From IMG/VR virus record IMGVR_UViG_3300042879_002674, positions 1 through 56,755 of that record: a stretch of 56,755 bases of DNA. One strand, 5' to 3'. Position numbers and translations under genes: made by a program. The notes beneath the pieces are model-generated. The model was not told where the DNA came from and searched no databases. It saw only the letters and a list, made by a program, of their open reading frames with translations. This document shows, one piece after another, positions 8,321-56,418 of the stretch. The stretch comes from a virus. How positions within the stretch are numbered: the first letter of the stretch is position 1; each line of letters opens with the position of its first letter.

Positions 8321-11300
8321 TTAAACTGTTTTCTTTTCTACTGATTTATTTAATTTAAAGTTTCTAACACCTTTAATTGCTCTAATATCAGTAAATAGTT
8401 GTTGTAAATCTTCATCCTTAAATCCATTAGGATATGGATGTGGGTCTACTTTCATTTTAATTATAGTATAGTAATTAGGATTACTAAATGCAGATGATTC
8501 ACCTGATAAATCATAGTCTTTACTTGATACAATTGTTATACCAGGTAATGAACGTATATCAGATAATATATCTTTTTGTGGGCGATCTTCAGTATTAGTT
8601 AATAATAATCCTTCAATATTATATTGAGTAGATTCTTCTTTAATTATTTTTAAAGTTAACTTACCATTACCTTTAATAACACGATGCCATTCACCTTTAG
8701 GTATAGAGATAGGTTGATTCATAGAAATTGGTAGTTGGTTTTCTAATTGTATTTTCCAATCAGTTTCACCTATAATTTCTACTATTCGGTTTTCATTATC
8801 ACGATGCCATTTTAATTCAATAGGATCAATATTCTCATCAAACTCACGAATAATATGTTCATTAGTTACTTCTAAATCTTTATAAGGTTTAGTTTTAGAT
8901 TTCATTTCTTCTATTTCTTCACGTGTTAATGCTCCCGCTGCTACCCGTATTATATCTTCTGTTTCACGTAAGTTACGAGCTGTTAAAGCATCTATAAAGT
9001 TACCTACTCTACCCATATTAAACGCGCTAGCAGCAGTTATAATAAAATGTCTTGCCTCAGGTTGAAACGACGCTTGTCCTATCATAGTACCACTAGCTAA
9101 ACGAATGATATACATTCTACTTTGACCAGCAGATATAATTCTAGTAACTCGTCCTCTGTCTCCTAATGCTCTATTACGACCCGCTACTCCATTATCATTA
9201 GCTACTAATGTACCTGATAATATTCTACTTCTAAGTGGTGCTGGTAAGGCAGTAAATCCTTGTTCTAAACCTGCTCCAACAATTGCTTGTCGTACAGCAT
9301 CATTTACTTGACCAGTAGTTGCAGGTGGTGTAGCTGCTGCTGCAGTTGCTGTTCTAGGTGTTCTTGTTGTTCCAGTACCCCTAACTGCACCAGCAGGTGG
9401 TCTTGTTCCTAGTATTATAGATACTTTAGCTGGGGTAAGATTAGCTCTAAGTAAATTACCTGTTGATGGGCTAATTTTTCTACTTTCAGATGGGTTATTT
9501 TGGTTTATAATATACCATGTTCCTTCATATTGAGCTGGTTTGTATATGTTATCAGCTGTCAAAGGAGGATTAGCTGCTAAGAATTTTTCTCCAGCATAAT
9601 ATTGAGAACTAGCTAAAGGAAGGAGTTGAGTAGGATCATAAGCTAAATTTTGGGATCTTAAATAATTAAAATATTCAGACCATATTTCTTGATTCGCCAT
9701 TTTTCCACTACCAAATCTTCCATCATCTCTGTAATTAAATGCTACAGAACTTCTATCTAAAGGATTATTTGTATTCCATAAATTAAGTTCATTTCCTGTA
9801 TTACTAGGTATTATTACATAGCTTTCATCTCCTCTTCTTACTATTCTTTTTTCAGCTGGGGTTTGTTTTATTATTGAAACTACAGTTGACATAGGTATTG
9901 TTGGAGGAATGCTATCAAATTTTCCAACTATTCTTACAATACCATCTTGAATACCACTACCTACTGTATCTGATTTTAATATACTTTGAACAGAATCATC
10001 TTCAAATGGTACTGGTGTGTATTCTCCATTTTCAGGTTTATATGCTTTAAAAGTATTTGTATCTAACACTATTTCACCTTCATCAGTATTTGCTGTTATG
10101 ATAGCTGATTTGGAGTCTTCTTCTTTTGATTTATCAATTACTTTAGTAATAGTATCTTTAGGTAAAAGATTATCTTTTGTTAACTTTAATAAAGCATCAA
10201 AAGGCATCTCATCAAATCTAGGTAAACTTCTTAATATACTACTTGTACGAGTGTTTATTTTGACATTAGGATATGTATCTTTTTCAGTAAATAAACCCAT
10301 TGATACATCATCACCACTAAATTTTAGTTTAATTATAGCTTTATCATCATTAGAAACGTAATATCTTTCATTACCAGGAACATCAAGTAATCCACCATTA
10401 ACTACTGCTTTTTTAGCTGAGAAAGGAATACCACGTGATTTTAAAGTTTCTGTAGGTACTTTTGTAAATCTTCTAGCGTTAGCTATAATTGATTTTTGGT
10501 TTTGATTAGAGAAAGAATCAAATTCTTGTAATAAAGTATTGATATCTATCATCCCATAGTTTTTAGCTACTACTGTAGCCATATCTTGATTGTCTGGGAG
10601 GATAGTTTTTACAAATTTTTCATTAGTAATATCATTAAAAAGTTTTTTTCCTTTTCTAATAATAAGATATCGTTCTTTGAAGTCAGGTGGTGCCACTTCC
10701 CATTCTTCAACATTCATAGCATTGTTAGCATATTGACGAGTTGATAATTCAACTTTTCCAATAGGAACATATCTGAATATTCTTTCTAAACCTCGAATTG
10801 ATGGGAAATTTTGTTCAACAAATGAAAATGGTTCCCATCTGTTCCATTCTGTTCCTCTACCACCAACATCATTATTTGATCTATCTGATACTTTATAAGT
10901 ATTATCACTACCTACTACAACAACAAAGAAACTTTTTCTATCACTGTCTGGTAAGTTAGTATCTTTTACTAAATAGAATGTTGGGTTTTTTCTATTAGCA
11001 TCATAACGATAATTACCAAATGAACCTTTAGTAATACACCATTGTTCACCTCGACCAAACTTTAAACAGTTTTCTTCATTATGGCCACTATAGATTATAA
11101 GACCATTTTCATTATAAACAACGTCTGGTATGTTTGATACATCTTCATCATCTTCTTCTTTGCTTGAGCCTTTGTAGGCTGATACAAGTTTTATTAATGA
11201 CTTTAATGGATATTTAGCTAAATCTTTTTCAGTTACTTTAGGATTATTTTTTAATCGAGCATCAAAATAGTCAATATAGTCGCTTAGATTTTTATCTGAG

Positions 11301-11437
11301 ATTGTGATGTCAAAATCATCTGCTTCTTGTTTAAATTTATCCATTAACTGTTGCTTAACTCTTGGAGCTAATGCCTCAGATAAATTGTTTGACCAATTGT
11401 TAACTAAATGTTCTATTAATTTATGAATATTACTCAT
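8321..11437 (-). CDS. Giant multidomain virion-type protein with WCIT domain and C-terminal cupin-like region (1038 aa)
   Basis: A 1038-residue protein. The N-terminus MSNIHKLIEHLVNNW is amphipathic like other proteins of this cluster. Residues ~118-200 contain CLKFGRGEQWCITKGSF and later FYLVKD, a pattern I associate with uncharacterised domains of large phage proteins. An Ala/Thr/Pro linker lies near residue 690. Around residues 870-930, ELKWHRDNENR and PKGEWHRVIKG look like a cupin-type beta barrel. The last ~100 residues look like a ferredoxin-like alpha/beta fold. A late motif precedes it (11451-11458). Likely a structural or injected protein; the enzymatic role, if any, is unknown. Confidence 0.75.
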   Translation of the reverse strand: MSNIHKLIEHLVNNWSNNLSEALAPRVKQQLMDKFKQEADDFDITISDKNLSDYIDYFDARLKNNPKVTEKDLAKYPLKSLIKLVSAYKGSSKEEDDEDVSNIPDVVYNENGLIIYSGHNEENCLKFGRGEQWCITKGSFGNYRYDANRKNPTFYLVKDTNLPDSDRKSFFVVVVGSDNTYKVSDRSNNDVGGRGTEWNRWEPFSFVEQNFPSIRGLERIFRYVPIGKVELSTRQYANNAMNVEEWEVAPPDFKERYLIIRKGKKLFNDITNEKFVKTILPDNQDMATVVAKNYGMIDINTLLQEFDSFSNQNQKSIIANARRFTKVPTETLKSRGIPFSAKKAVVNGGLLDVPGNERYYVSNDDKAIIKLKFSGDDVSMGLFTEKDTYPNVKINTRTSSILRSLPRFDEMPFDALLKLTKDNLLPKDTITKVIDKSKEEDSKSAIITANTDEGEIVLDTNTFKAYKPENGEYTPVPFEDDSVQSILKSDTVGSGIQDGIVRIVGKFDSIPPTIPMSTVVSIIKQTPAEKRIVRRGDESYVIIPSNTGNELNLWNTNNPLDRSSVAFNYRDDGRFGSGKMANQEIWSEYFNYLRSQNLAYDPTQLLPLASSQYYAGEKFLAANPPLTADNIYKPAQYEGTWYIINQNNPSESRKISPSTGNLLRANLTPAKVSIILGTRPPAGAVRGTGTTRTPRTATAAAATPPATTGQVNDAVRQAIVGAGLEQGFTALPAPLRSRILSGTLVANDNGVAGRNRALGDRGRVTRIISAGQSRMYIIRLASGTMIGQASFQPEARHFIITAASAFNMGRVGNFIDALTARNLRETEDIIRVAAGALTREEIEEMKSKTKPYKDLEVTNEHIIREFDENIDPIELKWHRDNENRIVEIIGETDWKIQLENQLPISMNQPISIPKGEWHRVIKGNGKLTLKIIKEESTQYNIEGLLLTNTEDRPQKDILSDIRSLPGITIVSSKDYDLSGESSAFSNPNYYTIIKMKVDPHPYPNGFKDEDLQQLFTDIRAIKGVRNFKLNKSVEKKTV

Positions 11438-44909: not shown

Positions 44910-44929
44910 AATAATCAATCCCTAATTGA

Positions 44930-45733: not shown

Positions 45734-45755
45734 AACCTTTATTTTTTATTTTTAT

Positions 45756-46052
45756 TTATAATTCTTGAATTAATGAACACATACGACCAATTGTGTTTCT
45801 ATATTTTTCTCTATAATCCATTCTCCATGGATCCTTATCTATATCTTGAGCTAAAAGAATTGCCTGGTTTGCATATATTTTTAACTTCTCAGATGTTGAA
45901 CCTTCAAATTCACCTTCTAAGGCATCAATTGTAGGTACAATAAATATCTTTTGAACTGCTTTACGGCCTCTTTTTCTAGGTTCAGCTGTGCTTACTTCTA
46001 ATTTAACTTCTTGTTTCTTTGTCCCGGGTGGGCGACCTCTTCTTTTTTCCAT
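45756..46052 (-). CDS. Small AT-hook protein (98 aa)
   Basis: Two AT-hook-like cores, KRRGRPPG at the N-terminus and RKRGRK near residue 27, then a helical C-terminus. AT-hooks bind the minor groove of AT-rich DNA, suitable to this genome. Early promoter upstream and the leader AATAAAGGTT before ATG. First gene of a two-gene unit with DUF932. Confidence 0.75.
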   Translation of the reverse strand: MEKRRGRPPGTKKQEVKLEVSTAEPRKRGRKAVQKIFIVPTIDALEGEFEGSTSEKLKIYANQAILLAQDIDKDPWRMDYREKYRNTIGRMCSLIQEL

Positions 46053-46079
46053 AACCTTTATTTGTGTTTTTAATTATAC

Positions 46080-46113
46080 CTAAATATAACATCCTTATCC
46101 TGGTGAGCCAAAC
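46080..46113 (-). promoter_or_regulatory. Early promoter for the AT-hook/DUF932 unit
   Basis: TTTG (46112-46109), N20, TATATTTAG, then GTATAATTAAAAA. Confidence 0.8.
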
Positions 46114-46115
46114 TC

Positions 46116-46286
46116 TTAACCGAAAATGATTGTCAAAGCGATATAAAACGCAAAATTAACAGTTACATTACCTAAGAAACTAACTAATTCCTGTTTAGTT
46201 GTTGGTTTTACCTCAGCCTTTTTATTCGCGATTACTCGAGCGATTACTGCTCCCAAAATCAAAATTGCAATTACTGTTGTGTTCAT
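46116..46286 (-). CDS. Small two-TM membrane protein (56 aa)
   Basis: A 56-residue protein with two hydrophobic segments, TVIAILILGAVIARVIA and FLGNVTVNFAFYIALTIIF, separated by a Lys-rich link. Own early promoter upstream. Not recognised. Confidence 0.7.
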   Translation of the reverse strand: MNTTVIAILILGAVIARVIANKKAEVKPTTKQELVSFLGNVTVNFAFYIALTIIFG

Positions 46287-46311
46287 AGTCGTTATTATTA
46301 ATTATTATATA

Positions 46312-46345
46312 TTAAATATAACATCCACTCACCAGGAAGCCAAAC
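46312..46345 (-). promoter_or_regulatory. Early promoter for the 56-aa membrane protein
   Basis: TTTG (46344-46341), N20, TATATTTAAT. Confidence 0.8.
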
Positions 46346-46396
46346 ATTCACCCGGAAAGGTTACGAGAAGATACTAGAACGTTGAAAATTAATGGA

Positions 46397-47359
46397 TTAG
46401 ACGATTTCTAGAGTAACATCGTCACCTATCTCACGAATCACTGCTAAAGCGTCCTGAGTCGCTACTACTATAGTTGAGTAGTTATCATCATCATTTAACC
46501 CAACTACTTGTACTAAACCAGCGTCTTCAATTACTTCCTCAATTGAACCAACTTGATCAACAATTTCATCTAATTGAGCTACTTTAAGATTTGTAGTTCT
46601 CATTTCATATATACCATAATCTCCTTTAGATAGAGATAAACCTGATAATGCTTGTTTAATGTCGAGTAATACTTGAGGCGGTTCAGTAGATAGTATTAAG
46701 TGATCTACTCCTATACCTTCCATTAAACTAGCATCACTTATATCTTCAGGTGTGAATGGGACAATAATTCCACCTACTTCACCTCCAATGAAATTACCTT
46801 GTTTTAATCCTATAGGAGCTAACTTACTAATCCACAACTTCCAGCTACCAGGATATAAGATGTTATCTGAGAAAATTGTCTTATATGCTTCTAATAACAT
46901 AGTATACATCTTAACACCTAGTCCTTTGCCGCGGTACTTTGGGCTAACATACGTTAAATGTATCTCTGCGCCCGGTATGCGATATGGCTTAGTACGCCCG
47001 GAATTCGCATTAATATATATTTTTTCTACCTCTACTTGTCCTATAACATAATCATCTAAAGTAGTACCTTTAGTATTTACTAAATATAAAGTACCACGAT
47101 AAGTTGAAGGTACTATAAACTCATAATCACCATCAGATATAAGAGTTGTTTTCTTAAGTATCTTAGGGTTGAATGTAGCACCAGGCTTCAGATCAAAGTC
47201 CTCAGAGTTAAACTTACCTCTACTTACAGTAAAAAATTCATCTTCAGGTATTTGAAAGTCTTCTAAAAATGCTATTAATACCTGTTCTAGAGTGATATTA
47301 TCATCTAAGTCTCCACTACGTAGGTCTAATTCTTTAAGTAAGTCGGTGAGTTTTATCAT
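46397..47359 (-). CDS. GNAT N-acetyltransferase with MIKLTDLLKE leader (320 aa)
   Basis: I start at 47359 (MIKLTDLLKE); ATG two codons earlier is possible. The GNAT acetyl-CoA motif is IHLTYVSPKYRGKGLGVKMY (residues ~145-165, RGKGLG). The leader is identical over ten residues to that of the P-loop kinase 26 kb away, although the codons differ. The last ~110 residues form an extra alpha/beta domain. Unlike its early neighbours it has a late core (47364-47371). The best single piece of evidence for a modular packaging signal. Acceptor substrate unknown. Confidence 0.8.
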   Translation of the reverse strand: MIKLTDLLKELDLRSGDLDDNITLEQVLIAFLEDFQIPEDEFFTVSRGKFNSEDFDLKPGATFNPKILKKTTLISDGDYEFIVPSTYRGTLYLVNTKGTTLDDYVIGQVEVEKIYINANSGRTKPYRIPGAEIHLTYVSPKYRGKGLGVKMYTMLLEAYKTIFSDNILYPGSWKLWISKLAPIGLKQGNFIGGEVGGIIVPFTPEDISDASLMEGIGVDHLILSTEPPQVLLDIKQALSGLSLSKGDYGIYEMRTTNLKVAQLDEIVDQVGSIEEVIEDAGLVQVVGLNDDDNYSTIVVATQDALAVIREIGDDVTLEIV

Positions 47360-47363
47360 GGTC

Positions 47364-47371
47364 ATAAATAT
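47364..47371 (-). promoter_or_regulatory. Late-promoter core before the GNAT gene
   Basis: Coding strand ATATTTATGACC directly at the start codon(s), implying a leaderless or near-leaderless mRNA. Confidence 0.5.
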
Positions 47372-47386
47372 TAAAAAAGTAAGAGA

Positions 47387-47402
47387 GGTCCATGCGTGGA
47401 CC
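47387..47402 (-). terminator. Hairpin upstream of the GNAT gene
   Basis: Stem GGTCCA/TGGACC with 4-nt loop, then TCTCTTACTTTTTT on the minus strand; ends the 47437-48708 transcript. Confidence 0.75.
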
Positions 47403-47436
47403 CCATCTTATTGCATCTTAATACGTATATACGTAT

Positions 47437-47607
47437 CTACAAACAAGTAATAATAAAATCACCAATAGCGTATAGGAGAGACAGCGATGACCATCCTAAA
47501 AAGAACCATGATGTTTTATACCAAAATTTCTTTGGTTCATCTTTATATAAGTAAAGATTGAGGGCATGTAGACCAGTTAATAAGGCCCATCCAATAATTG
47601 ATACCAT
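47437..47607 (-). CDS. Small two-TM membrane protein (56 aa)
   Basis: MVSIIGWALLTGLHALNLYL forms a first hydrophobic segment and WFFLGWSSLSLLYAIGDFII a second, with a Lys-rich loop between. The ATG is 1 bp past the stop of the 80-aa gene. Not recognised. Confidence 0.65.
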   Translation of the reverse strand: MVSIIGWALLTGLHALNLYLYKDEPKKFWYKTSWFFLGWSSLSLLYAIGDFIITCL

Positions 47608-47608
47608 A

Positions 47609-47851
47609 TTATTCTATTGTTAAGTTATCTTCTTGTAGCATTTCTCTAATAACGTCTCTTAGACGGTAACATACATCCATTTCTTCAGGTGTTGCTTGAC
47701 CATTACCTTGTAGTGCGCTTCCGTACTTGTGGACGCTACGTAGTTTTTGATCTAGTTCCCAAAGTAAACTTCTATACTTGTATCCGTATAATGCAGAGTG
47801 TATTCCTTCTGCTTCCTCAACGAGGTCAAATTCTATTGTTAATTTTGCCAT
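47609..47851 (-). CDS. Small conserved phage protein (80 aa)
   Basis: An 80-residue protein with FDLVEEAEGIHSALYGYKYR and LLWELDQKLRSVHKYG, a pattern that recurs in short proteins of many phages; no function is assigned. It follows the oversized tRNA-like gene by 15 bp and is likely on the same transcript. Confidence 0.75.
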   Translation of the reverse strand: MAKLTIEFDLVEEAEGIHSALYGYKYRSLLWELDQKLRSVHKYGSALQGNGQATPEEMDVCYRLRDVIREMLQEDNLTIE

Positions 47852-47866
47852 AATTTTAAAATTTAG

Positions 47867-47972
47867 TAGTCAGGACAGGAATCGAACCTGCTTCAGCTTT
47901 ATCATTCTGAGTGCCATTAGCTGTTAGTCTCAACCCTGGAAGGTGCTGCGCTTTCCAAAACGCCACCTGACT
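47867..47972 (-). tRNA. Oversized tRNA-Leu-like gene (CAG anticodon, 106 nt)
   Basis: Acceptor AGTCAGG/CCTGACT and T-arm GCAGG-TTCGATT-CCTGT are intact. Between T8-G9 and the conserved GGTTGAGAC of the D-loop lies an extra hairpin TGGAA(AG)...(CC)TTCCA. The anticodon loop CTCAGAA (CAG) is closed by TGGCA/TGATA with one mismatch, extended by AGCT/AGCT, so the anticodon stem is nearly doubled. Confidence 0.6.
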
Positions 47973-48072
47973 ATATACCTTTTTAAACGACGTCGAGAAG
48001 GCTAACTCTATCTCCTATACGATGAGAACAGTTACTTTGAGCATTGTCAAGAGGCTTACTGTGTTTTACGAT
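47973..48072. other. Transcribed spacer without a visible gene
   Basis: About 100 nt between the tRNA-like gene and the hairpin at 48073. I see no ORF over 20 codons with a plausible start and no tRNA fold. Confidence 0.4.
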
Positions 48073-48088
48073 CCCCTCGCGAGCGGGG
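48073..48088 (-). terminator. GC hairpin immediately after the 86-aa gene
   Basis: CCCC/GGGG stem around TCGCGA, adjacent to the stop at 48089. No U-tract on the minus side, so it may be a processing site ahead of the tRNA-like gene rather than a terminator. Confidence 0.4.
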
Positions 48089-48349
48089 CTAATTTTTTTC
48101 TATATGATTATATACTAATTTCATTACCCAAGCATCTACAAACTCATACATACCACATATGTTACGTGCTTCTTCTTCGGTATCATAATAAATTATACTA
48201 CCGTTTTCATCCTTCATGTAACCCATGTTTCTGAGATCTATGATTACGTATTTGCCTTCCATTAAATTTAAAACTTCATTTGGTTCAATACCAAATTTAG
48301 CATTTGGGTTATCATAATTGAAATAATGGATATTTTTTTGATCTTCCAT
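48089..48349 (-). CDS. Small acidic hypothetical protein (86 aa)
   Basis: An 86-residue acidic alpha/beta protein (KYVIIDLRNMGYMKDENGS; EEEARNICGMYEFVDAWVMK). Follows the 31-aa membrane gene by 4 bp. Unrecognised. Confidence 0.65.
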   Translation of the reverse strand: MEDQKNIHYFNYDNPNAKFGIEPNEVLNLMEGKYVIIDLRNMGYMKDENGSIIYYDTEEEARNICGMYEFVDAWVMKLVYNHIEKN

Positions 48350-48353
48350 ATTT

Positions 48354-48449
48354 TTAAATTATTCCTCTTTGGACTAAATCGAGTACTATTATACCAACTA
48401 TTCCACCTATAAAAAATCCTATTAAAAAACTCTTTTCGTATTTTTCCAT
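48354..48449 (-). CDS. 31-aa single-TM peptide
   Basis: MEKYEKSFLIGFFIGGIVGI continuing into IVLDLVQRG: one membrane segment with Gly-xxx-Gly spacing and a basic tail. It fits exactly between two genes, 1 bp after the upstream stop, which supports a real gene. Confidence 0.6.
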   Translation of the reverse strand: MEKYEKSFLIGFFIGGIVGIIVLDLVQRGII

Positions 48450-48450
48450 A

Positions 48451-48708
48451 TTAGAATCGTGCTAAAGGATCTGAAGTGATGATACCACCATCTTTTTCAC
48501 CTCGTGAAGTTAACATTTGTTCCTGTGGTATTACTTCCACTATAACGCCGTTAGCAGTGAATTTACCACCCTGTTTTAGCAACTTCGTGAACAGCGTTGC
48601 ATGCTTAGGTTCCCACGTTTTACTCGCTTCTACTACCACTGCTTTGTCTACTACCTTACCATCGAATTTAATAGTAATACCTTTTCTAATTGCTCTTGAT
48701 GAAATCAT
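48451..48708 (-). CDS. Small basic beta protein (85 aa)
   Basis: An 85-residue protein (KGITIKFDGKVVDKAVVVEA ... GGKFTANGVIVEVI) with a compact beta pattern and Lys-rich surface. First gene of the 48708-47437 transcript, own early promoter; the AATAAAGGTT leader precedes ACACATATG. Not recognised. Confidence 0.7.
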   Translation of the reverse strand: MISSRAIRKGITIKFDGKVVDKAVVVEASKTWEPKHATLFTKLLKQGGKFTANGVIVEVIPQEQMLTSRGEKDGGIITSDPLARF

Positions 48709-48735
48709 ATGTGTAACCTTTATTTTTTATTATAT

Positions 48736-48769
48736 CTAAATATACGTATATACTTCCCGATAGCCAAAC
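48736..48769 (-). promoter_or_regulatory. Early promoter for the 48.7-47.4 kb unit
   Basis: TTTG (48768-48765), N20, TATATTTAG. Drives three small genes, the tRNA-like gene and two more small genes. Confidence 0.8.
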
Positions 48770-48779
48770 TTTTTGTTAA

Positions 48780-49020
48780 AGGAGTTTTTTCATTTCTTGC
48801 GATTTTTGGTCAAAGGGGTTAGTTCGGAATTTGGGGTGTGGTTGTGGGTAATATATATATGTATATACAAATCGGGGCGGGAAGATCGTTTACGATCTGA
48901 AGGTTGATCCATTCCCAGGGTTTTCAGGTATACCGGGTATATGGATATCAACGCGCATGGTAGCGCTTACGTCGTACTGTATATGTACATACCGTGTACA
49001 CGCGCACTCCCGCGACACAG
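48780..49020. other. GC-richer noncoding segment with inverted repeats
   Basis: About 240 nt with no convincing gene on either strand and a base composition unlike the flanks. It has AGATCGT/ACGATCT at 48883-48898, GGTATACC at 48927-48934, an alternating AT run near 48850-48868 and several Gs in short runs. It follows the last gene of the 49.0-50.0 kb operon. A terminator region, regulatory RNA or replication/packaging site are all open. Confidence 0.4.
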
Positions 49021-49025
49021 GAGGA

Positions 49026-49187
49026 TCAAGCGTGGTCAGAAATGTAAACCACCTCTTCACTGGTCAGTGACACCGAAATTTGCTCGGCGATTGTCTCCAC
49101 CAGACTAGGTGACAGTTCACCATGTGGCACTTGCTGGCGATGTACTTCCATCATCACTAGTGCGGCGTTGTAGCTCATTGTTGTCAT
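49026..49187 (-). CDS. Small hypothetical protein (53 aa)
   Basis: MTTMSYNAALVMMEVHRQQV opening, 53 residues, helical. Its ATG overlaps the upstream stop as TAATG, which supports translation by coupling. Codon use and GC are higher than in the virion genes. Confidence 0.6.
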   Translation of the reverse strand: MTTMSYNAALVMMEVHRQQVPHGELSPSLVETIAEQISVSLTSEEVVYISDHA

Positions 49188-49369
49188 TATAGTCGTTGGA
49201 GTTTTAATTGGACGAATTCGTTACACATGTCTGCTGTACCTACCATTCTACAAACACCATTCCAGTCTAGTACTTCGTATGCTGGTGCACTTGATGGGCA
49301 GTTGGAATAATTGTCTTCGGGGAACTGGCCCATTGTCTTACCAGTGGATTTGATTTGAAATCGTTTCAT
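49187..49369 (-). CDS. Small Cys-containing protein (60 aa)
   Basis: A 60-residue protein with NCPSSAP, GVCRM and ADMCNE: three Cys that could bind metal. Located between the 45-aa and 53-aa genes of one operon. Unrecognised. Confidence 0.6.
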   Translation of the reverse strand: MKRFQIKSTGKTMGQFPEDNYSNCPSSAPAYEVLDWNGVCRMVGTADMCNEFVQLKLQRL

Positions 49370-49384
49370 GTCTGTATGTTTTTA

Positions 49385-49522
49385 TTATATATAAAATTGG
49401 ATTATTAAAAATGGGATGTCTAATGAGATGTATCTACGTTTTGGTACAACCGAGGTGCCCCAGGTGATCATTAAACCGATTTGGTTGTGAATCATTATTC
49501 TCATTCGCTTATATTCTATCAT
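49385..49522 (-). CDS. Small basic protein (45 aa)
   Basis: MIEYKRMRIMIHNQIGLMIT continues to a hydrophobic C-terminus (FLIIQFYI), 45 residues. Start overlaps the stop of the 69-aa gene as ATGA. The overlap is the main support. Confidence 0.5.
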   Translation of the reverse strand: MIEYKRMRIMIHNQIGLMITWGTSVVPKRRYISLDIPFLIIQFYI

Positions 49523-49728
49523 GGTATGTCTACTTTTTCGATCCACACTTCATCACTTTCACCTACATAGTACATGCAGATCCCTTTGTACATGTATTGG
49601 GTTGTTCCTTTCAAGTACTCAACTATGTTATCATCCATGTAGTGAGCGTCTAACTCTATCACCTCGTCCTCCTCCATGTTTGAGAAACGATCTAAATTGG
49701 TCTCGATGTATTGAATTAATCTGTTCAT
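49519..49728 (-). CDS. Small acidic protein (69 aa)
   Basis: A 69-residue, Asp/Glu/Tyr-rich protein (EEDEVIELDAHYMDDNIVEY; CMYYVGESDEVWIEKVD). Highly acidic, which is compatible with DNA mimicry, but I have no positive evidence for it. Confidence 0.65.
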   Translation of the reverse strand: MNRLIQYIETNLDRFSNMEEDEVIELDAHYMDDNIVEYLKGTTQYMYKGICMYYVGESDEVWIEKVDIP

Positions 49729-49741
49729 ACCTGGTTTTTAA

Positions 49742-49990
49742 TTAGTGTTTAATTTCGTAACTGAATAAATAACCACAGTCGTCATCGTACATGTCTATCT
49801 CAGCTGCTACCAGACCTGATAATTGAGACATTACATCTTCGTTTAGGCGTTGCCAGTAACCGATTCTTAAATGGCGTTCAGTGCCTCGGAATTGGATTTC
49901 ATCTTGCTTAATACCGTTGTTAGTTAAGATGTTCTCGATTGTTCTTTCAATTGTTGTTTGCGGTGCTTCGCTTTCTGATCTAAATTTCAT
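49742..49990 (-). CDS. Small acidic hypothetical protein (82 aa)
   Basis: Start set at 49990 (MKFRSESEAP); an apparent upstream extension is merely the translated promoter. The alpha/beta pattern includes IENILTNNGIKQDEIQFRGT and a C-terminal DMYDDDCGYLFSYEI. First gene of the 50.0-49.0 kb operon. Confidence 0.7.
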   Translation of the reverse strand: MKFRSESEAPQTTIERTIENILTNNGIKQDEIQFRGTERHLRIGYWQRLNEDVMSQLSGLVAAEIDMYDDDCGYLFSYEIKH

Positions 49991-50013
49991 GTTATATCTG
50001 TTTTTAATTATAC

Positions 50014-50047
50014 CTGAATATAACATCACCTGATCGGGAAGCCAAAC
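50014..50047 (-). promoter_or_regulatory. Early promoter for the 50.0-49.0 kb operon
   Basis: TTTG (50046-50043), N20, TATATTCAG, then GTATAATTAAAAACAG. Confidence 0.8.
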
Positions 50048-50052
50048 AAGTG

Positions 50053-50190
50053 TTAACGAAGGGTGTCCACGGCTACCGTATCTGTTACTACGATCGGGAC
50101 TGTCTCACCATATGGACTCACCCAATATATGTCTGTTGTCGTCGGGGAACATCCCGCTAGCACAAGCGCTACTATAAGGATACGTACCAT
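50053..50190 (-). CDS. Small lipoprotein (45 aa)
   Basis: MVRILIVALVLAGCSPTTTD: a signal peptide with lipobox LAGC at residue 14, then ~30 residues of Val/Thr-rich mature peptide. It overlaps the end of the caspase-like gene by 19 bp. A short outer-membrane-attached peptide whose role is unknown. Confidence 0.65.
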   Translation of the reverse strand: MVRILIVALVLAGCSPTTTDIYWVSPYGETVPIVVTDTVAVDTLR

Positions 50191-50720
50191 CTGTCTGAAT
50201 TATATTTGGCGATGTCGTTTGTCTCCGCCAGTAACTGGTACTGCTGTCCGACACTAGCATGGATATCCTCCAGAGCGTCTGACACTAGTAATCGCTCTCC
50301 CAGCAACTGTGCGAACGTATCATTGGATCTGTCTACCGTATCCTGGTCTGTCATTATCTTGAAGTAATTCGCTTCCGCTACCTCACTGATGAACATCCCG
50401 GAGTACATGCCCTTGAGGTTGTAGCGATGGACAAACTGGTCGGCGTTGCACCAGATGAATATGCTGTTGTCCTTATGTGCTAACGCCTCAGCCACTAGCG
50501 CATCCACGATGTACATGCCTGTTCTGAACCCAGATACGTTTAGCAGTCCACCTGGCGTTCCATGGCCTAACATGATCACCTGGTCGTGATCGTCTATCAT
50601 GTCCATGAGCTCTAGGCGGCTGCATCCGGTAGTCACTAGTGTGACGTCTGGTAAGCGATTGTATATCGGCGCTAGGAAGTCTGTAGATGGGTCTGTCGGG
50701 TGTATTACTAGTCGTTTCAT
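50172..50720 (-). CDS. Caspase/CHAT-like protein with H-C dyad (182 aa)
   Basis: Start at 50720 (MKRLVIHPTD), where ATG overlaps the upstream stop as ATGA. Residues 49-58 IMLGHGTPGG and 87-93 FIWCNAD give the His-Gly and Cys motifs of clan CD peptidases (caspase, gingipain, CHAT), with a beta strand before each (QVIMLGHG; SIFIWC) as the fold requires. A GMYSGMF-SEV stretch follows. The gene is GC-richer than the virion genes. It is flanked by a membrane protein and a lipoprotein in one operon. Catalysis is inferred from the dyad only. Confidence 0.8.
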   Translation of the reverse strand: MKRLVIHPTDPSTDFLAPIYNRLPDVTLVTTGCSRLELMDMIDDHDQVIMLGHGTPGGLLNVSGFRTGMYIVDALVAEALAHKDNSIFIWCNADQFVHRYNLKGMYSGMFISEVAEANYFKIMTDQDTVDRSNDTFAQLLGERLLVSDALEDIHASVGQQYQLLAETNDIAKYNSDRWYVSL

Positions 50721-50908
50721 TTGTTTCGGCTTATTAATATTAGTGCCCAATATCCACCTATGGCTATTATAAGCGCTAGCGGTATCCAAAGTGGACTAGT
50801 TACCCACCACCATGACCAATCAATGTTGCCTGTTAATTTAAGTACTAGGAACACTAAGAATAATACCGTTCCAAATCCAATTCCGTTTGATGTGTTTTCG
50901 TTTGCCAT
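50717..50908 (-). CDS. Small two-TM membrane protein (63 aa)
   Basis: VLFLVFLVLKLTGNIDWSWW and SPLWIPLALIIAIGGYWALI are two membrane segments joined by a Trp-rich turn (WSWWWVTSPLWIP). This resembles the small phage proteins known as transmembrane Fragile-X-F-like. The stop overlaps the ATG of the caspase-like gene. Confidence 0.75.
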   Translation of the reverse strand: MANENTSNGIGFGTVLFLVFLVLKLTGNIDWSWWWVTSPLWIPLALIIAIGGYWALILISRNK

Positions 50909-50909
50909 T

Positions 50910-51155
50910 TTATTTATTTGCTATTTGATTCATAATTTCAAGTACATCATCAGGTGAACACCATCCACGAACATCATCATGCTCGCTCAGTTTCACCCAT
51001 TTCCTATCTGGGCCCCATGCTGCGACTTCAGCTGTGGTCTCACCTTCGTCCGAGTAATTGTTTTTACCAAACTGGACACTCATGGTGTATCCGTTCTTGA
51101 ATATCATATGGAACCCGTTATGATATTCGTTTTGTGTTGCTCTAAATTTGCTCAT
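50910..51155 (-). CDS. Small phage protein (81 aa)
   Basis: An 81-residue protein with FHMIFKNGYTMSVQFGKNNY and AEVAAWGPDRKWVKL, a pattern I have seen in other phages without known role. Beta-rich. Second gene of the 51.4-50.0 kb operon. Confidence 0.7.
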   Translation of the reverse strand: MSKFRATQNEYHNGFHMIFKNGYTMSVQFGKNNYSDEGETTAEVAAWGPDRKWVKLSEHDDVRGWCSPDDVLEIMNQIANK

Positions 51156-51415
51156 ATATTTAATGCTTTTCTTTGTACTTCAATAAACCATTCAATTGTC
51201 TTACTATCCTCCTTAACCGTTTCACTAGCGTCATTTAAAACGCAAACGTCAAAATATGATCTGTGATACTCCATACTGTCATGATAATTTTTATGATCAG
51301 GTTTGATAAACGTTACTCGTCCTCCATCCCCATCATCCACTACCTCATAACCTAATCCTGTTACCATTTCAAATACTAGCTTGTTAAGCGCTTTTCTTGA
51401 TTCTGTTTTATTCAT
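51152..51415 (-). CDS. Small hypothetical protein (87 aa)
   Basis: MNKTESRKALNKLVFEMVTG then a beta-rich region; 87 residues. First gene of the five-gene operon that ends with the lipoprotein; its stop overlaps the next ATG. Confidence 0.7.
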   Translation of the reverse strand: MNKTESRKALNKLVFEMVTGLGYEVVDDGDGGRVTFIKPDHKNYHDSMEYHRSYFDVCVLNDASETVKEDSKTIEWFIEVQRKALNI

Positions 51416-51436
51416 GTTCGTGTTATTTAATTATGA

Positions 51437-51470
51437 CTAAATATAACATCACCTTTACCAGAGGCCAAAC
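51437..51470 (-). promoter_or_regulatory. Early promoter of the caspase-like operon
   Basis: TTTG (51469-51466), N20, TATATTTAG. Confidence 0.8.
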
Positions 51471-51483
51471 CTAGGTACAGAGA

Positions 51484-51501
51484 GGGGCCGCAAGCGGCCC
51501 C
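51484..51501 (-). terminator. Perfect hairpin after the 172-aa gene
   Basis: GGGGCCGC-AA-GCGGCCCC. Upstream in the transcript is ATGTGTGTTTTTAATTATA, the reverse complement of the leader type that precedes many start codons. Confidence 0.7.
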
Positions 51502-51535
51502 ATCTCCTATATAATTAAAAACACACATGAACTAC

Positions 51536-52054
51536 TTAACTGATCCTCTCTAGGTACATGTCCCCAAAGATGTCATCTATCTCATCACTTACCGAATCTG
51601 GATCCAAATCAATCGCACCATCAATTTCATCATGGATAGATCTAGCAATTGAATCTTGATCTAGCTCGATCTCAATCTGGTAACCATAACTCATAGATAG
51701 ATCAACTAAACTATCTGCGTCTAGGTTAGTGTCTGTCACTGCTTCCTTACATTTATCAATTATTCGCCCAGCCAACTTAGTGGCGAAGTCGATCATCTCT
51801 GCTCTGGTAAGGTGAACATGTCCTGCGTACTTATCATCCTCTGTTACCACATATGCACTTTCTACTACTGTTCGTTCCACATCACCAAAACCTCTAACAT
51901 CGAATTCAGGACCTTCGTCTACCACCTCCACAGGTGATTCTTCACATCCGCATCCACAGGCACCGTCACCACAAATGGTTTCACCATATACTCGTTTTCC
52001 AATTGCCTCAATCTTATCATTTAACTCCATTAATTGCTCTAATACTGTCTTCAT
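51536..52054 (-). CDS. Acidic protein with Cys-rich CGDGACGCGC loop (172 aa)
   Basis: A 172-residue acidic protein. Near residue 27 it has CGDGACGCGCEES (four Cys), a likely metal site; the C-terminal half is Asp/Glu/Ile-rich helix. Own promoter and own terminator. Not recognised. Confidence 0.7.
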   Translation of the reverse strand: MKTVLEQLMELNDKIEAIGKRVYGETICGDGACGCGCEESPVEVVDEGPEFDVRGFGDVERTVVESAYVVTEDDKYAGHVHLTRAEMIDFATKLAGRIIDKCKEAVTDTNLDADSLVDLSMSYGYQIEIELDQDSIARSIHDEIDGAIDLDPDSVSDEIDDIFGDMYLERIS

Positions 52055-52076
52055 GTTATCTGTTTTTATTATTGAT

Positions 52077-52110
52077 CTAAATATAATGTCTTATCCTCCG
52101 AGAGCCAAAC
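52077..52110 (-). promoter_or_regulatory. Early promoter for the 172-aa gene
   Basis: TTTG (52109-52106), N20, TATATTTAG. Confidence 0.8.
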
Positions 52111-52115
52111 CTACT

Positions 52116-52385
52116 TTAGTTAAGGTAAAACCCTATTTCCTGTACTTCGTTCTTGGCAAAATTTTTAGCCGACTGTAGGAAGTGTAGGTGCAAGTGCAAG
52201 GCATTTATGTCGTCCATAATCTCCCTAGTTGGTCTCATGTCTAGGAACATCATCGAGTTATGTTCTAGTTCCTGTATCTGTTTCAACGCTTGGTCTATCG
52301 ATTTATTAGCCGTGCTTAATATATCTAGGATCTGGTGCGCCTGAATACGCTCTAATACTTCGTCGGTGTGTTTATCGTAATCCAT
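52116..52385 (-). CDS. Small helical protein (89 aa)
   Basis: An 89-residue fully helical protein (VLERIQAHQILDILSTANKS; LHLHLHFLQSAKNFAKNEV). 1 bp after the 88-aa gene. Coiled coil likely; not recognised. Confidence 0.65.
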   Translation of the reverse strand: MDYDKHTDEVLERIQAHQILDILSTANKSIDQALKQIQELEHNSMMFLDMRPTREIMDDINALHLHLHFLQSAKNFAKNEVQEIGFYLN

Positions 52386-52386
52386 C

Positions 52387-52653
52387 TTATTTAAATTTAC
52401 TTATAATGTTTTTGATACAATGTCCTTCTCCTAAATTAATAGTCCAAACACTTCTAACCATTCTTTTTTTACCATCCTTAACTCCTACTACCTTCATAAT
52501 TCGTTCTTCACCTGTAAAACCTTTACATCCTTCCTTTCTCATCCAATAATAAAAAGTAATGTTTACACCATCTACCTTTACATCCTTCTCCCAATACTGG
52601 TTAATGCAATGATCTTTCGTTGAATTAATTTGTTCTTCTCTGAAATTTTTCAT
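52387..52653 (-). CDS. Small basic protein with Cys (88 aa)
   Basis: Start at 52653 (MKNFREEQIN); the upstream in-frame extension is promoter sequence. Strand-rich, basic, with a Lys-rich turn KDGKKRMVRS. The first residues MKNF resemble the MKNL starts of two other early genes, probably because the leader is duplicated. Confidence 0.65.
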   Translation of the reverse strand: MKNFREEQINSTKDHCINQYWEKDVKVDGVNITFYYWMRKEGCKGFTGEERIMKVVGVKDGKKRMVRSVWTINLGEGHCIKNIISKFK

Positions 52654-52673
52654 ATTCGTGTTTTTAATTATAC

Positions 52674-52707
52674 CTGAATATAACATCCATGTTCGGCTAA
52701 GCCAAAC
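52674..52707 (-). promoter_or_regulatory. Early promoter for the 88-aa/89-aa genes
   Basis: TTTG (52706-52703), N20, TATATTCAG. Confidence 0.8.
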
Positions 52708-52713
52708 AGAAGT

Positions 52714-52729
52714 GGGCCCCTTTGGGCCC
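52714..52729 (-). terminator. GGGCCC hairpin after the HTH gene
   Basis: Two self-complementary GGGCCC copies 4 nt apart, after GTGTGTGTTTTTCAGAAA in the HTH transcript's 3' UTR. Confidence 0.6.
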
Positions 52730-52759
52730 CTTTCTGAAAAACACACACATGGCTGGGTA

Positions 52760-52969
52760 TTAACCCACTAGCTCGATAGTCTTCATACGACGACGAGACA
52801 TATTGTACATAGCGTTCGCTACGTCTTGGTTCACCGAACGGCGACCGTTAATGATGTTTGAAACATGACTGGTAGAATAACCAGTTGTCTCTGCTAGGCG
52901 AGCAGTGTCACCTTTACGTTGACGTGCATTGTAGAACGCCAATTTTGCTGTACGATTTAATTTACGCAT
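52760..52969 (-). CDS. HTH (Cro/C1-type) DNA-binding regulator (69 aa)
   Basis: A 69-residue protein with an XRE-type helix-turn-helix: DTARLAETTGYSTSHVSNII (residues ~21-40) with the recognition helix STSHVSNIINGRR. Basic ends (RKLNRTAKLA; SRRRMK). A small repressor or activator of phage promoters. Its own promoter has CTTG instead of TTTG, a possible sign of separate control. Confidence 0.85.
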   Translation of the reverse strand: MRKLNRTAKLAFYNARQRKGDTARLAETTGYSTSHVSNIINGRRSVNQDVANAMYNMSRRRMKTIELVG

Positions 52970-52995
52970 AACTTTTATTAATTATTTATTTATAT

Positions 52996-53028
52996 CTCAA
53001 TATACGATAGCACTAATGTTAGAGCAAG
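52996..53028 (-). promoter_or_regulatory. Variant promoter of the HTH gene
   Basis: CTTG (53028-53025), N20, TATATTGAG; 27 nt before ATG. Confidence 0.55.
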
Positions 53029-53048
53029 CTATCCTTAAGAAAGGGAAA

Positions 53049-53073
53049 GACCTAAGCTGATCAGGCCTAGGTC
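53049..53073 (-). terminator. Hairpin after the tRNA-Leu transcript
   Basis: Stem GACCTA/TAGGTC around the palindrome CTGATCAG, followed on the minus strand by TTTCCCTTTCTT. Confidence 0.6.
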
Positions 53074-53262
53074 TCCATTGTTGGGGCGCTTTGCTTCGCG
53101 TTCGAATCCCATGAGTAAGTTGGTTATTCATCTAACTGGCGTACGTTCCAGTCGATATAGCCTTGCCTAAGGGCCTTCCTCATTGTTACCAGATTAAATG
53201 TCTCATAATCTACCCTTTGGTCCTATAATCTCCCTTCGGGTCTCATAATCAACTACTGGTAT
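53074..53262. other. Noncoding stretch between tRNA-Leu and its terminator
   Basis: 190 nt with no gene. It holds three tandem 20-bp units at 53201-53260 (listed separately) and a lone TTCGAAT that resembles a T-loop but lacks a pairing stem. Confidence 0.5.
53201..53260. repeat. Three tandem imperfect 20-bp units
   Basis: Units start at 53201, 53221 and 53241; TCTCATAATC opens the first and third exactly and TCCTATAATC the second; each ends in a G-rich YTTCGGG/CTTTGG-type tail. Confidence 0.7.
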
Positions 53263-53351
53263 TGGTAGCCGGAGTGGGAATCGAACCCACACTGCCGTTT
53301 CGGGCAACAGGATTTTAAGTCCTGCGTGTCTACCTATTTCACCACCCGGCC
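53263..53351 (-). tRNA. tRNA-Leu (UAA), CCA encoded
   Basis: 89 nt: acceptor GGCCGGG/TCCGGCT with two G-U pairs, anticodon stem CAGGA/TCCTG with loop CTTAAAA, class II variable arm TTGCCCGAAACGGCAGT, T-arm GTGGG-TTCGATT-CCCAC, discriminator A and CCA. Complete and well formed, and co-transcribed with the 53-aa gene. Confidence 0.95.
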
Positions 53352-53360
53352 ATTTGAGGC

Positions 53361-53522
53361 TTATGCCTCCGGAGTCGCTTCCGCTTGTTCAACCTCAGCC
53401 TTAGGCTTAGATGGACGTCCACGTTTAATTACTCCTCCGTTTGCTGCAACTCGTGCTGCGCGGGCCGCTAATCGTGCTTGACGTGCGCTACCCTCTACTA
53501 CTGGTCTTCCTTTTTGTGACAT
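53361..53522 (-). CDS. Small AT-hook, Ala/Arg-rich protein (53 aa)
   Basis: MSQKGRPVVEGSARQARLAA ... VIKRGRPSKPKAE: an Ala/Arg helix and an AT-hook core KRGRPSKP. Small DNA-binding protein for AT-rich DNA. Leader AATAAAGGTT directly before ATG. Stop codon lies in the hairpin GAGGC-TTAT-GCCTC; tRNA-Leu follows 10 bp later. Confidence 0.75.
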   Translation of the reverse strand: MSQKGRPVVEGSARQARLAARAARVAANGGVIKRGRPSKPKAEVEQAEATPEA

Positions 53523-53552
53523 AACCTTTATTTATTTGTTTTTATTATTTAT

Positions 53553-53586
53553 CTGAATATAACATACCTACTTGGCTGAGCCAAAC
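53553..53586 (-). promoter_or_regulatory. Early promoter for AT-hook gene and tRNA-Leu
   Basis: TTTG (53585-53582), N20, TATATTCAG. Confidence 0.8.
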
Positions 53587-53859
53587 CTATCTACCCATTT
53601 CTTTCTCCCACTCATCCCCGTCTATAAACATCCCAGGTCCAGACCCTAGACTATCTACGAACTCTTGAACTTCATCAAACAACTCAGCATTGTCAACATA
53701 GTCATATAATGTTCCTGTTTTACTTGATAATGTAAAGTCAATTACTGTTCCATCTTCACCTGCCCATTCAGTATAGATTAGGATTTTTTCTGTTGGGTGG
53801 TCAATAACATAAACATTCTGTGTTATTCCTGATTGTGTGATTTGATTTCTTAATTTCAT
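53587..53859 (-). CDS. Small acidic hypothetical protein (90 aa)
   Basis: A 90-residue protein with strands NVYVIDHPTEKILIYTEWAG and an acidic helical C-terminus ending EKEMGR. Own promoter. Not recognised. Confidence 0.65.
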   Translation of the reverse strand: MKLRNQITQSGITQNVYVIDHPTEKILIYTEWAGEDGTVIDFTLSSKTGTLYDYVDNAELFDEVQEFVDSLGSGPGMFIDGDEWEKEMGR

Positions 53860-53876
53860 GTGTTTCTTATTTATGA

Positions 53877-53910
53877 TTAAATATAACGTCCTGATCCCCC
53901 TAAGCCAAAC
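53877..53910 (-). promoter_or_regulatory. Early promoter for the 90-aa gene
   Basis: TTTG (53909-53906), N20, TATATTTAA. Confidence 0.8.
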
Positions 53911-54180
53911 TTATTCGTGGATAAGATTCACTTCTTTTACCACTTCTGAAACATTAAACTCTCGCTCCTCAGCTACGGCTATAAGTTGTTTAATCTGTAG
54001 TGCGTCAAAGGCGTTATCTGGGTTTAATACGTCGGTTAAGGCCGTTATAAACGTCTTAAATACCGCATCATCCACATTGTGATAACTGATAACTCCTTTA
54101 ATAGTTCCAATTAACTTGCCGTAACGGGCGTGAATTGATTGTTCTGCATCTTTACCTGGCTCAATTACTAAATTTTTCAT
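53911..54180 (-). CDS. Small helical protein (89 aa)
   Basis: Start at 54180 (MKNLVIEPGKD); the upstream extension is the translated promoter. An 89-residue helical protein (IHARYGKLIGTIKGVISYHN; ITALTDVLNPDNAFDALQIK). Not recognised. Confidence 0.65.
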   Translation of the reverse strand: MKNLVIEPGKDAEQSIHARYGKLIGTIKGVISYHNVDDAVFKTFITALTDVLNPDNAFDALQIKQLIAVAEEREFNVSEVVKEVNLIHE

Positions 54181-54200
54181 ATATCTGTTTTTAATTATAC

Positions 54201-54234
54201 CTGAATATAACATCGCTCTACCTGGAAGCCAAAC
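54201..54234 (-). promoter_or_regulatory. Early promoter for the 89-aa gene
   Basis: TTTG (54233-54230), N20, TATATTCAG. Confidence 0.8.
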
Positions 54235-54248
54235 CTAACACGAAAGAG

Positions 54249-54264
54249 GGGCCATAAATGGCCC
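54249..54264 (-). terminator. Hairpin after the RecA-like gene
   Basis: GGGCCAT-TT-ATGGCCC stem. Between stop and hairpin lies GTGTGTGTTTTTTAATTATAG, complementary to the gene's own 5' leader. Confidence 0.65.
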
Positions 54265-54293
54265 ACCCTTCCTATAATTAAAAAACACACACT

Positions 54294-55097
54294 TTATTCC
54301 TCTTCGTCCGCCTCTGGCAAACTGTACTCAACTTGGTTAAAACCAATTCTATATTTGATATATGATTCAGTATCACAATCTCTGTTTTTACTGAAATATA
54401 CCTTTCTACTATCACTACCTTTAATTCTATCAATATGACACATTGCTTCGGTCATGTGTTTCAATCTGTTACTACCTGCAAAATCACCTGCTTTAGTTAC
54501 TTGTTGAATGTTAATAAACGATGTGTACTTTTTTAATTTATTACCACCTTTCTTAACTGTTGATTGTAAGTTCAAAAACCATAACTCCGCAGCGCTTTCA
54601 GTTGTACGGTAAGTATCTTTAAACATTTCAATTACCTCAGCAATACTATCAATTGCAATCACATCATAACCTTGGTCGAACACATACTCCATTGTCTCAC
54701 GAACCGTTTCAGTATAGTTCTTCAAAAATAATGTCGGTACAACCTTAAAACCAGGCATACGTTTACAATATTTGAAGTGACCAATTTCATCCATCTCACC
54801 ACTCACAAACAATACCTTTTTACCTTTAGACGCTAGTTTAGATAACATATCTAATACCACCGTACTCTTACCTGAACCTGGTCCGCCGCAGATAATCATA
54901 TTAACAGCAGGCATTAAACCCTTATCTGTTGATAAAATCGAATCCATCAACGTTCCAGTTGACATTGGGCGAAATACAGACTCGTTAAATGATAACTCAG
55001 AACCTTTAAATATTTGAACTGATTTTGGGTCGAACGCTACTGTTTCTTTAACTTTTGGCTTACGACCTCTTTTCTTTTGCATTACTAAATTTTTCAT
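54294..55097 (-). CDS. RecA/RadA-like ATPase (recombinase candidate), 267 aa
   Basis: N-terminal basic, AT-hook-like KKRGRKPK, then a RecA core: Walker A GGPGSGKST (residues ~71-79), a catalytic Glu in FVSGEMDE and Walker B VIAIDSIAE (near residue 125). The protein is a core-only RecA-like ATPase; T4 UvsX is ~390 aa, so this is shorter, similar in size to Sak4-type single-strand annealing-associated proteins. A role in recombination or replication is likely, not proven. Own promoter and terminator. Confidence 0.8.
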   Translation of the reverse strand: MKNLVMQKKRGRKPKVKETVAFDPKSVQIFKGSELSFNESVFRPMSTGTLMDSILSTDKGLMPAVNMIICGGPGSGKSTVVLDMLSKLASKGKKVLFVSGEMDEIGHFKYCKRMPGFKVVPTLFLKNYTETVRETMEYVFDQGYDVIAIDSIAEVIEMFKDTYRTTESAAELWFLNLQSTVKKGGNKLKKYTSFINIQQVTKAGDFAGSNRLKHMTEAMCHIDRIKGSDSRKVYFSKNRDCDTESYIKYRIGFNQVEYSLPEADEEE

Positions 55098-55118
55098 GTG
55101 TGTGTTTTTTATTATGAA

Positions 55119-55152
55119 TTAAATATAACATCATCTGACCCAAAGGCCAAAC
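55119..55152 (-). promoter_or_regulatory. Early promoter for the RecA-like gene
   Basis: TTTG (55151-55148), N20, TATATTTAA; leader AAAAAACACACAC before ATG. Confidence 0.8.
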
Positions 55153-55167
55153 AAGAGGTAACAAATG

Positions 55168-55356
55168 TTACCCTTGAATCATCCTACCCTCCTCAAATAT
55201 AACCCAACTAAAATCTGAGTAATGTTCGCCTGGTGATAAGAATTCCTCTTTAATTAAATGATTATTTAACTCATCTTTAAAACATCTAATAGATGTAAAA
55301 TCATAAATGTCATTACGATCTACAAAGATCAAATAGGTGTAAATTTCTTGATACAT
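55168..55356 (-). CDS. Small acidic protein (62 aa)
   Basis: MYQEIYTYLIFVDRNDIYDF and a C-terminal SDFSWVIFEEGRM: a 62-residue alpha/beta peptide with acidic surface. Own promoter. Not recognised. Confidence 0.6.
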   Translation of the reverse strand: MYQEIYTYLIFVDRNDIYDFTSIRCFKDELNNHLIKEEFLSPGEHYSDFSWVIFEEGRMIQG

Positions 55357-55379
55357 GTGTTATTATTTTTTAATTATAC

Positions 55380-55413
55380 CTAAATATAACATCACCTAAC
55401 CCAAAGGCCAAAC
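55380..55413 (-). promoter_or_regulatory. Early promoter for the 62-aa gene
   Basis: TTTG (55412-55409), N20, TATATTTAG. Confidence 0.8.
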
Positions 55414-55415
55414 AG

Positions 55416-55437
55416 AGGGACACATTCCTGTGCCCCT
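55416..55437 (-). terminator. Hairpin after the 115-aa gene
   Basis: 9-bp stem AGGGGCACA/TGTGTCCCT with GGAA loop (minus strand), one G-U pair, 16 bp after the stop. Confidence 0.65.
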
Positions 55438-55453
55438 CCATTTAAAGGTAATT

Positions 55454-55801
55454 TTACTTACCTAAACCCTCTAATACAACCTCAACTACACTCTCAACAT
55501 TCTCCTCATCCAACACCCAATCAATACTATCTACAACCTCACTTAACACTCTACCTCTACTAACTTTAACTTCTAAACCACCCATCACATCACTATTACG
55601 TTTAGTGTATAAGGCACCTCCAAAATCAAAATTATCTTTTTTACTTAACTCAAACTTCACACCATTTGCAACGGCATTACTAATTGTTTTAGTAAATTCA
55701 ATTAACTCCTCTCTTGTGAAAGTAATACTTTCATTATTAATTTCGTTTTCTAACTCTGCAATTTTTGCTTTTAAACCTAACAATTCTGCGAACTTGTTCA
55801 T
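55454..55801 (-). CDS. Small hypothetical protein (115 aa)
   Basis: A 115-residue protein: N-terminal helix (FAELLGLKAKIAELENEINN), then FTREELIEFTKTISNAV and a Val/Glu-rich C-terminus. Own promoter and terminator; A-rich leader. Not recognised. Confidence 0.65.
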   Translation of the reverse strand: MNKFAELLGLKAKIAELENEINNESITFTREELIEFTKTISNAVANGVKFELSKKDNFDFGGALYTKRNSDVMGGLEVKVSRGRVLSEVVDSIDWVLDEENVESVVEVVLEGLGK

Positions 55802-55836
55802 ACTTTTTTGTTTTTAATTATTATTTTTTTATTTGA

Positions 55837-55870
55837 CTAAATATAACATCCCTTTATTACAAGGCCAAAC
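55837..55870 (-). promoter_or_regulatory. Early promoter for the 115-aa gene
   Basis: TTTG (55869-55866), N20, TATATTTAG. Confidence 0.8.
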
Positions 55871-56122
55871 CTACTTTACCCACTCTATAACCTCCCCTAA
55901 ACCGTCTTCTACACTAAACTCTACAGTACCATTCTCATCTTCCTCAAATTCAAACATGTCATTAACATCCTTATCACTAGTAAATAATACTGCATACTCA
56001 TTAATTACGCTTGAAATTAACTTTTCTTGTTCTGTTGTTAACGGCTCATTAAATATTTTTTCAACGTAGCCGTACTGTGAATTGTAAATAAACCCTGTAA
56101 CCCCTTCTTTTAATTTTAACAT
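55871..56122 (-). CDS. Small acidic protein (83 aa)
   Basis: MLKLKEGVTGFIYNSQYGYV then an acidic C-terminus with EFEEDENGTVEFSVEDGLGE. 83 residues. Own promoter. Not recognised. Confidence 0.65.
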   Translation of the reverse strand: MLKLKEGVTGFIYNSQYGYVEKIFNEPLTTEQEKLISSVINEYAVLFTSDKDVNDMFEFEEDENGTVEFSVEDGLGEVIEWVK

Positions 56123-56147
56123 ATTATTTGTGTTTTTTTAATTATGA

Positions 56148-56181
56148 CTGAATATAACATCAATGTTCAGCAGAGCCAAAC
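56148..56181 (-). promoter_or_regulatory. Early promoter for the 83-aa gene
   Basis: TTTG (56180-56177), N20, TATATTCAG. Confidence 0.8.
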
Positions 56182-56186
56182 AAAAT

Positions 56187-56210
56187 GGTGAGGGAGTTTA
56201 AATACTCACC
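56187..56210 (-). terminator. Hairpin spanning the stop of the 65-aa gene
   Basis: GGTGAG/CTCACC stem with the stop codon (56198-56200) in the loop. Confidence 0.5.
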
Positions 56211-56395: not shown

Positions 56396-56418
56396 GTGTT
56401 ATTAATTTTTAATTATAC

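Follow-up and report, generated by a model that had tools for sequence, protein, structure and literature searches.

The window, by which we mean the whole 56,755-nucleotide stretch of DNA analysed, is a 56.7-kb virus fragment that carries baseplate wedge and primase genes. On its minus strand, five genes (51415..50053) are bracketed by two copies of a promoter-like repeat, and the fourth of these genes encodes a predicted caspase-like cysteine protease. The features of the locus, in the direction of transcription, are as follows.

51424..51470, minus strand: promoter-like repeat (GTTTGGCCT...GATGTTATATTTAGTCATAATTAAATA; GTTTGGC...GATGTTATATTYAGNNATAATTAAAAA), which precedes the five-gene operon
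51152..51415, minus strand: first gene of the operon, encoding an 87-aa protein without a family
50910..51155, minus strand: gene for an 81-aa operon protein, weakly matched by phrog_4074
50717..50908, minus strand: gene for a two-TM protein of 63 aa, phrog_1374 (E 2.5e-23), ATGA-coupled to the protease gene
50172..50720, minus strand: gene for a caspase-like, predicted clan CD cysteine protease of 182 aa, with the H53 codon at 50564..50562 and the C91 codon at 50450..50448
50053..50190, minus strand: gene for a predicted lipoprotein of 45 aa with the lipobox LAGC, which shares 19 bp with the end of the protease gene
50001..50047, minus strand: next copy of the promoter-like repeat (GTTTGGC...GATGTTATATTYAGNNATAATTAAAAA), which precedes the following gene and bounds the operon

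The original prediction described a 182-aa protein with HG (53-54) and C91 each placed after a hydrophobic strand, and direct reading of complement(50172..50720) confirmed this. The ATGA coupling to the two-TM ORF (50908..50717) and the overlap with the small lipoprotein ORF, both also claimed, are present, and the range given (50053-51415) additionally takes in the 81-aa and 87-aa genes of the same operon. The pattern of a hydrophobic stretch followed by HG and a second hydrophobic stretch followed by C is found in 1 of the 72 genes called in the window, as compared with 0.07 per shuffled gene set. The protease is a single domain of only 182 aa and has no pro-domain.

The gene is located outside the structural block of the window, among small genes with promoter-like repeats. 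The second half of the repeat is matched 10 times in the window, where 0.02 matches would be expected, and about 15 looser copies (GTTTGGC...GATGTTATATT) are distributed over 44475-56452 on the minus strand, all in the same orientation and before small genes. We read the element as a putative promoter. G+C content is 0.43 at 50-52 kb, compared with about 0.30 over most of the window. Elsewhere in the window, a dehydrogenase-like phage gene lies at 3621-4901 on the minus strand (phrog_12409, E 1.2e-24), and several proteins carry a motif resembling MIKLxxLLxE at or near their start (18370-18870, 20503-21348 and 46397-47365, minus strand). The internal proteins of T4 bear a capsid-targeting leader, and by analogy this motif could be such a leader.

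Fold and relation to clan CD proteases

Using 11 sequences, we built an AlphaFold2 model of the protease, which scores a pLDDT of 93.3 and a pTM of 0.90. Its elements run in the order strand, helix, strand, helix, strand 3, GHG, hairpin, helix, strand 4 and C. Specifically, a strand at 47-51 leads into G52-H53-G54 and a strand at 86-89 leads to C91, with a hairpin and a helix in between as in caspases. A Foldseek search of the PDB placed caspase-8/cFLIP at the top, as a weak match (E 2.4e-3, prob 0.97, TM 0.45, rmsd 7.7). The list also contains the gingipain RgpB, C11 and Csx29, with receiver and flavodoxin folds scoring close behind, so that the overall fold match does not by itself settle the assignment. 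In a viral structure library, one unnamed protein matched at E 2e-5, and caspase-like proteins of giant viruses appeared further down with weaker scores. The latter (cedratvirus, pithovirus and the C11 protein of Clandestinovirus) resemble the phage protein in these fold matches alone, and differ from it in being longer and in belonging to eukaryotic viruses.

Neither the window protein nor divergent members of its family matched the Pfam models of C14 (PF00656), CHAT (PF12770), C25 (PF01364) or C11 (PF03415). In profile-to-profile comparison with hhalign, C25 was the best match and aligned HG with HG, at an E of 0.0016 and a probability of 16-18% that makes it only suggestive; flavodoxin (E 0.035) and receiver (E 0.35) profiles both matched worse.

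Clan CD is defined by a His-Cys dyad in that order (PMC12445089). H53 and C91 are present in this order in 54/54 non-redundant relatives, a glycine adjoins the histidine in all of them (G52-H53-G54), and the model, at pLDDT 93, puts the histidine behind strand 3 of the alpha/beta sandwich and the cysteine behind strand 4. The protein thus shares with C14, C25, C11 and CHAT proteases such as Csx29 the order of the dyad, glycine on both sides of His, the placing after strands 3 and 4, and the intervening hairpin and helix. It differs from them in that none of the member families matches it significantly by sequence, in its small single-domain build without a pro-domain, in its weak TM-score and in the residue before Cys. 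The C11 clostripain motif is His-Gly-(X)n-Ala-Cys (PMC12445089), whereas Trp directly precedes Cys in 53/54 of the family representatives. The assignment to caspase-like clan CD proteins made in the original prediction is supported by the order of strands and helices in the model and by the fully conserved His and Cys; we found neither a predicted fold lacking the alpha/beta sandwich nor a relative that had lost these residues.

Relatives and the membrane link

An initial search gave 26 loci, and an alignment-based search extended these to at least 150 viral contigs, of which 80 were kept, and ten genome-assembly contigs. Relatives of the protease are encoded on no fewer than 150 environmental contigs of IMG/VR, and three contigs carry two copies each. 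Among GenBank phage records, relatives are found in fifteen Lak megaphages, which are giant phages of the gut, and in one doubtful record, MT837816. This record (MT837816.1, L118), labelled Bacteriophage sp., contains the family member beside transpeptidase-like and PP2C-like genes, and because it resembles a bacterial fragment we left it out of the phage evidence. Nine of the ten genome-assembly contigs come from Bacteroidota MAGs. The other one, L037, is assigned to a 'Methanoregulaceae' MAG; it is probably viral, and probably a mis-binned phage, since its ORF is identical to that of a viral contig (L024) over their shared part. By sequence reading, some of the MAG contigs have chromosomal-type neighbours, for example ParA/ParB-like genes beside the family gene in L032 and a MetK-like gene nearby in L034; others could be prophages or mis-binned phage. 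The hosts of the virus are Bacteroidota bacteria, and matches were found in 2 of 395 Bacteroidota genomes in one search and in 3 of 395 in another. A search of plasmids found no relatives. No model in Pfam, PHROGs or NCBIfam matched the window protein, PADLOC had none for it or its relatives, and a sequence search of the PDB returned only chance-level matches.

Clustering at 85% left the 54 representatives on which all conservation counts are based. G52, H53, G54, G58, L59, C91 and M109 are invariant in 54/54, and dN/dS among close relatives is 0.05-0.12, indicating strong purifying selection on the gene.

We also looked at the membrane protein and lipoprotein that had been proposed as partners of the protease. 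Among close relatives, both genes are present in L001 and L002, only the two-TM gene in L004, and neither in L005 and L006. Across the family, 13/54 members have a flanking gene that encodes a membrane segment, as compared with 21% of other genes (p 0.59). Relatives that lack the neighbours, together with this background rate, led us to reject a conserved membrane partnership. In L057, L060, L094 and L099, four phage sequences from a neighbouring clade, the protease frame continues into a hydrophobic TM/lipobox segment and a lipoprotein domain. The junction offers no usual start codon in L060. It carries an ATG in L057, and a GTG lies close by in L094 and L099, so that the tail might be translated on its own in these three. 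These four group with the window protein and L045 in the tree with moderate support (94/74), and homology between the window lipoprotein and the fused domains is not significant. With a lipoprotein-type tail fused to the protease in a neighbouring clade, a link to the membrane stays possible.

Proposed function of the predicted protease

We regard the protease nature of the protein as fairly secure, and it is quite probable that it is an active, clan CD-like enzyme. Most likely, it represents a new caspase-like family that is phage-encoded and expressed from an early-type operon. In the mechanism we favor, Bacteroidota phages would make a small caspase-fold cysteine endopeptidase, with a predicted His53-Cys91 dyad, in the cytoplasm from an operon presumably transcribed early. 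A fused or neighbouring lipoprotein segment would sometimes hold it at the inner membrane, and it would cleave, at a specific site, a single host protein or a small number of them for takeover or counter-defence, or else proteins that belong to competing phages. We give this reading as a whole, an active, early-type and sometimes membrane-tethered protease directed at host or rival proteins, a roughly even chance. If the enzyme is indeed an active clan CD-like protease, the odds that its target lies in the host would likewise be close to level.

Distant relatives in bacteria bear on the first alternative. In genomes G318 and G098 (loci L117/L228 and L229), such a relative closes an operon of three genes.

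L228:1414-3560: operon of HATPase kinase-like, receiver-like and caspase-like genes
L229:1-2151: operon of the same three kinds of gene

The first gene is HATPase kinase-like (PF02518, E 7e-10), the middle gene is receiver-like by sequence reading and has no Pfam match, and the last retains GHG and SC. A profile built without L117 detected it at E 8.5e-11, and one that included L117 detected L229 at E 2e-16; the caspase-like genes are thus distantly homologous to the phage protease by profile. PADLOC had no model for the L117/L228 proteins, and the operons may represent a signalling or defence system that has not been described before. Their gene order suggests that the domain acts there as the output protease of signalling or defence-like systems. 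The phage protease could accordingly be imagined as a phage-carried defence or superinfection-exclusion effector, which acts on incoming rivals or kills the doubly infected cell as its cousins in HATPase operons might. Besides these HATPase-receiver-caspase operons, the patchy presence of the membrane and lipoprotein neighbours, the lipoprotein-type fusions and the occurrence of the family on bacterial contigs are consistent with such a role. However, kinase-like and receiver-like genes beside the protease, present in L228 and L229, are absent from the window and the phage loci, where we recognised no sensor gene and no toxin/immunity pair either, and the family, frequent among phages, is seldom seen in genomes of their hosts (2-3 of 395 Bacteroidota). 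We consider an exclusion effector a credible but doubtful explanation.

A second alternative is that the protease processes phage proteins, in virion maturation or in regulated cleavage of a phage polyprotein. A protein family that we call C1 or 'WCT' (317-495 aa, related to phrog_17056 and phrog_28193) is encoded within 3.5 kb of the protease in 16/54 loci (L082:4191-5318 and 15 others), and its members share an invariant Y-G-x-x-T-K-W-C-T as well as an acidic tail that is disordered. In L024, the caspase-like domain is fused to an N-terminal domain matching phrog_17056/phrog_28193, and the window has a distant C1 match in the protein at 8321..11437 (E 1.6e-6). The C1 model reached a pLDDT of 77 and found no match in the PDB. 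Given its nearness to the protease and the L024 fusion, C1 may be a phage-encoded partner or substrate. Against processing, no single neighbour is kept throughout the family loci, and the protease gene of the window is not near recognised structural genes, so that we think this role improbable.

A Rossmann-like protein of receiver or flavodoxin type, in which HG and C serve some purpose other than proteolysis, would explain the closeness of these folds in the Foldseek list. Their sequence profiles match worse than that of C25, and the spacing of GHG and C, the hairpin after His and the invariance of these residues argue for clan CD, which makes this alternative an unlikely one as well. The original prediction also raised the idea of a decoy, in which an inactive protein of caspase fold would titrate a caspase-like defence protein of the host or the activator of that protein. 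Fold cousins in bacterial operons resembling signalling or defence systems are in keeping with it. We consider it very improbable, since a decoy could lose Cys or His without harm, and here the catalytic pair is complete in every relative and the gene is under purifying selection. Nothing positive favors the lysis-timing protease also suggested there.

We thus return to a site-specific protease that acts on host or rival proteins. Its invariant His and Cys allow a clean mutant test of the protease role. Among open-licence PMC papers, we did not find this family reported, and a search by term of two jumbo-phage reviews and one Lak paper found caspases mentioned in none of them. The family may have been hidden by a lack of cultured representatives, as its GenBank phage carriers are the Lak phages and the one doubtful record only. 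In bacteria, caspase-like proteases are chiefly known from systems of defence and cell death. That many phages carry a conserved and apparently active version, and few of their hosts do, suggests use of caspase-type chemistry by the phages themselves. Tentatively, and at somewhat less than even odds, Bacteroidota phages up to the Lak megaphages would share a set of unnamed early caspase-fold proteases, some of them membrane-tethered, that cut host or rival proteins and form, on the phage side, a counterpart to the caspase-like proteases found in bacterial immunity.
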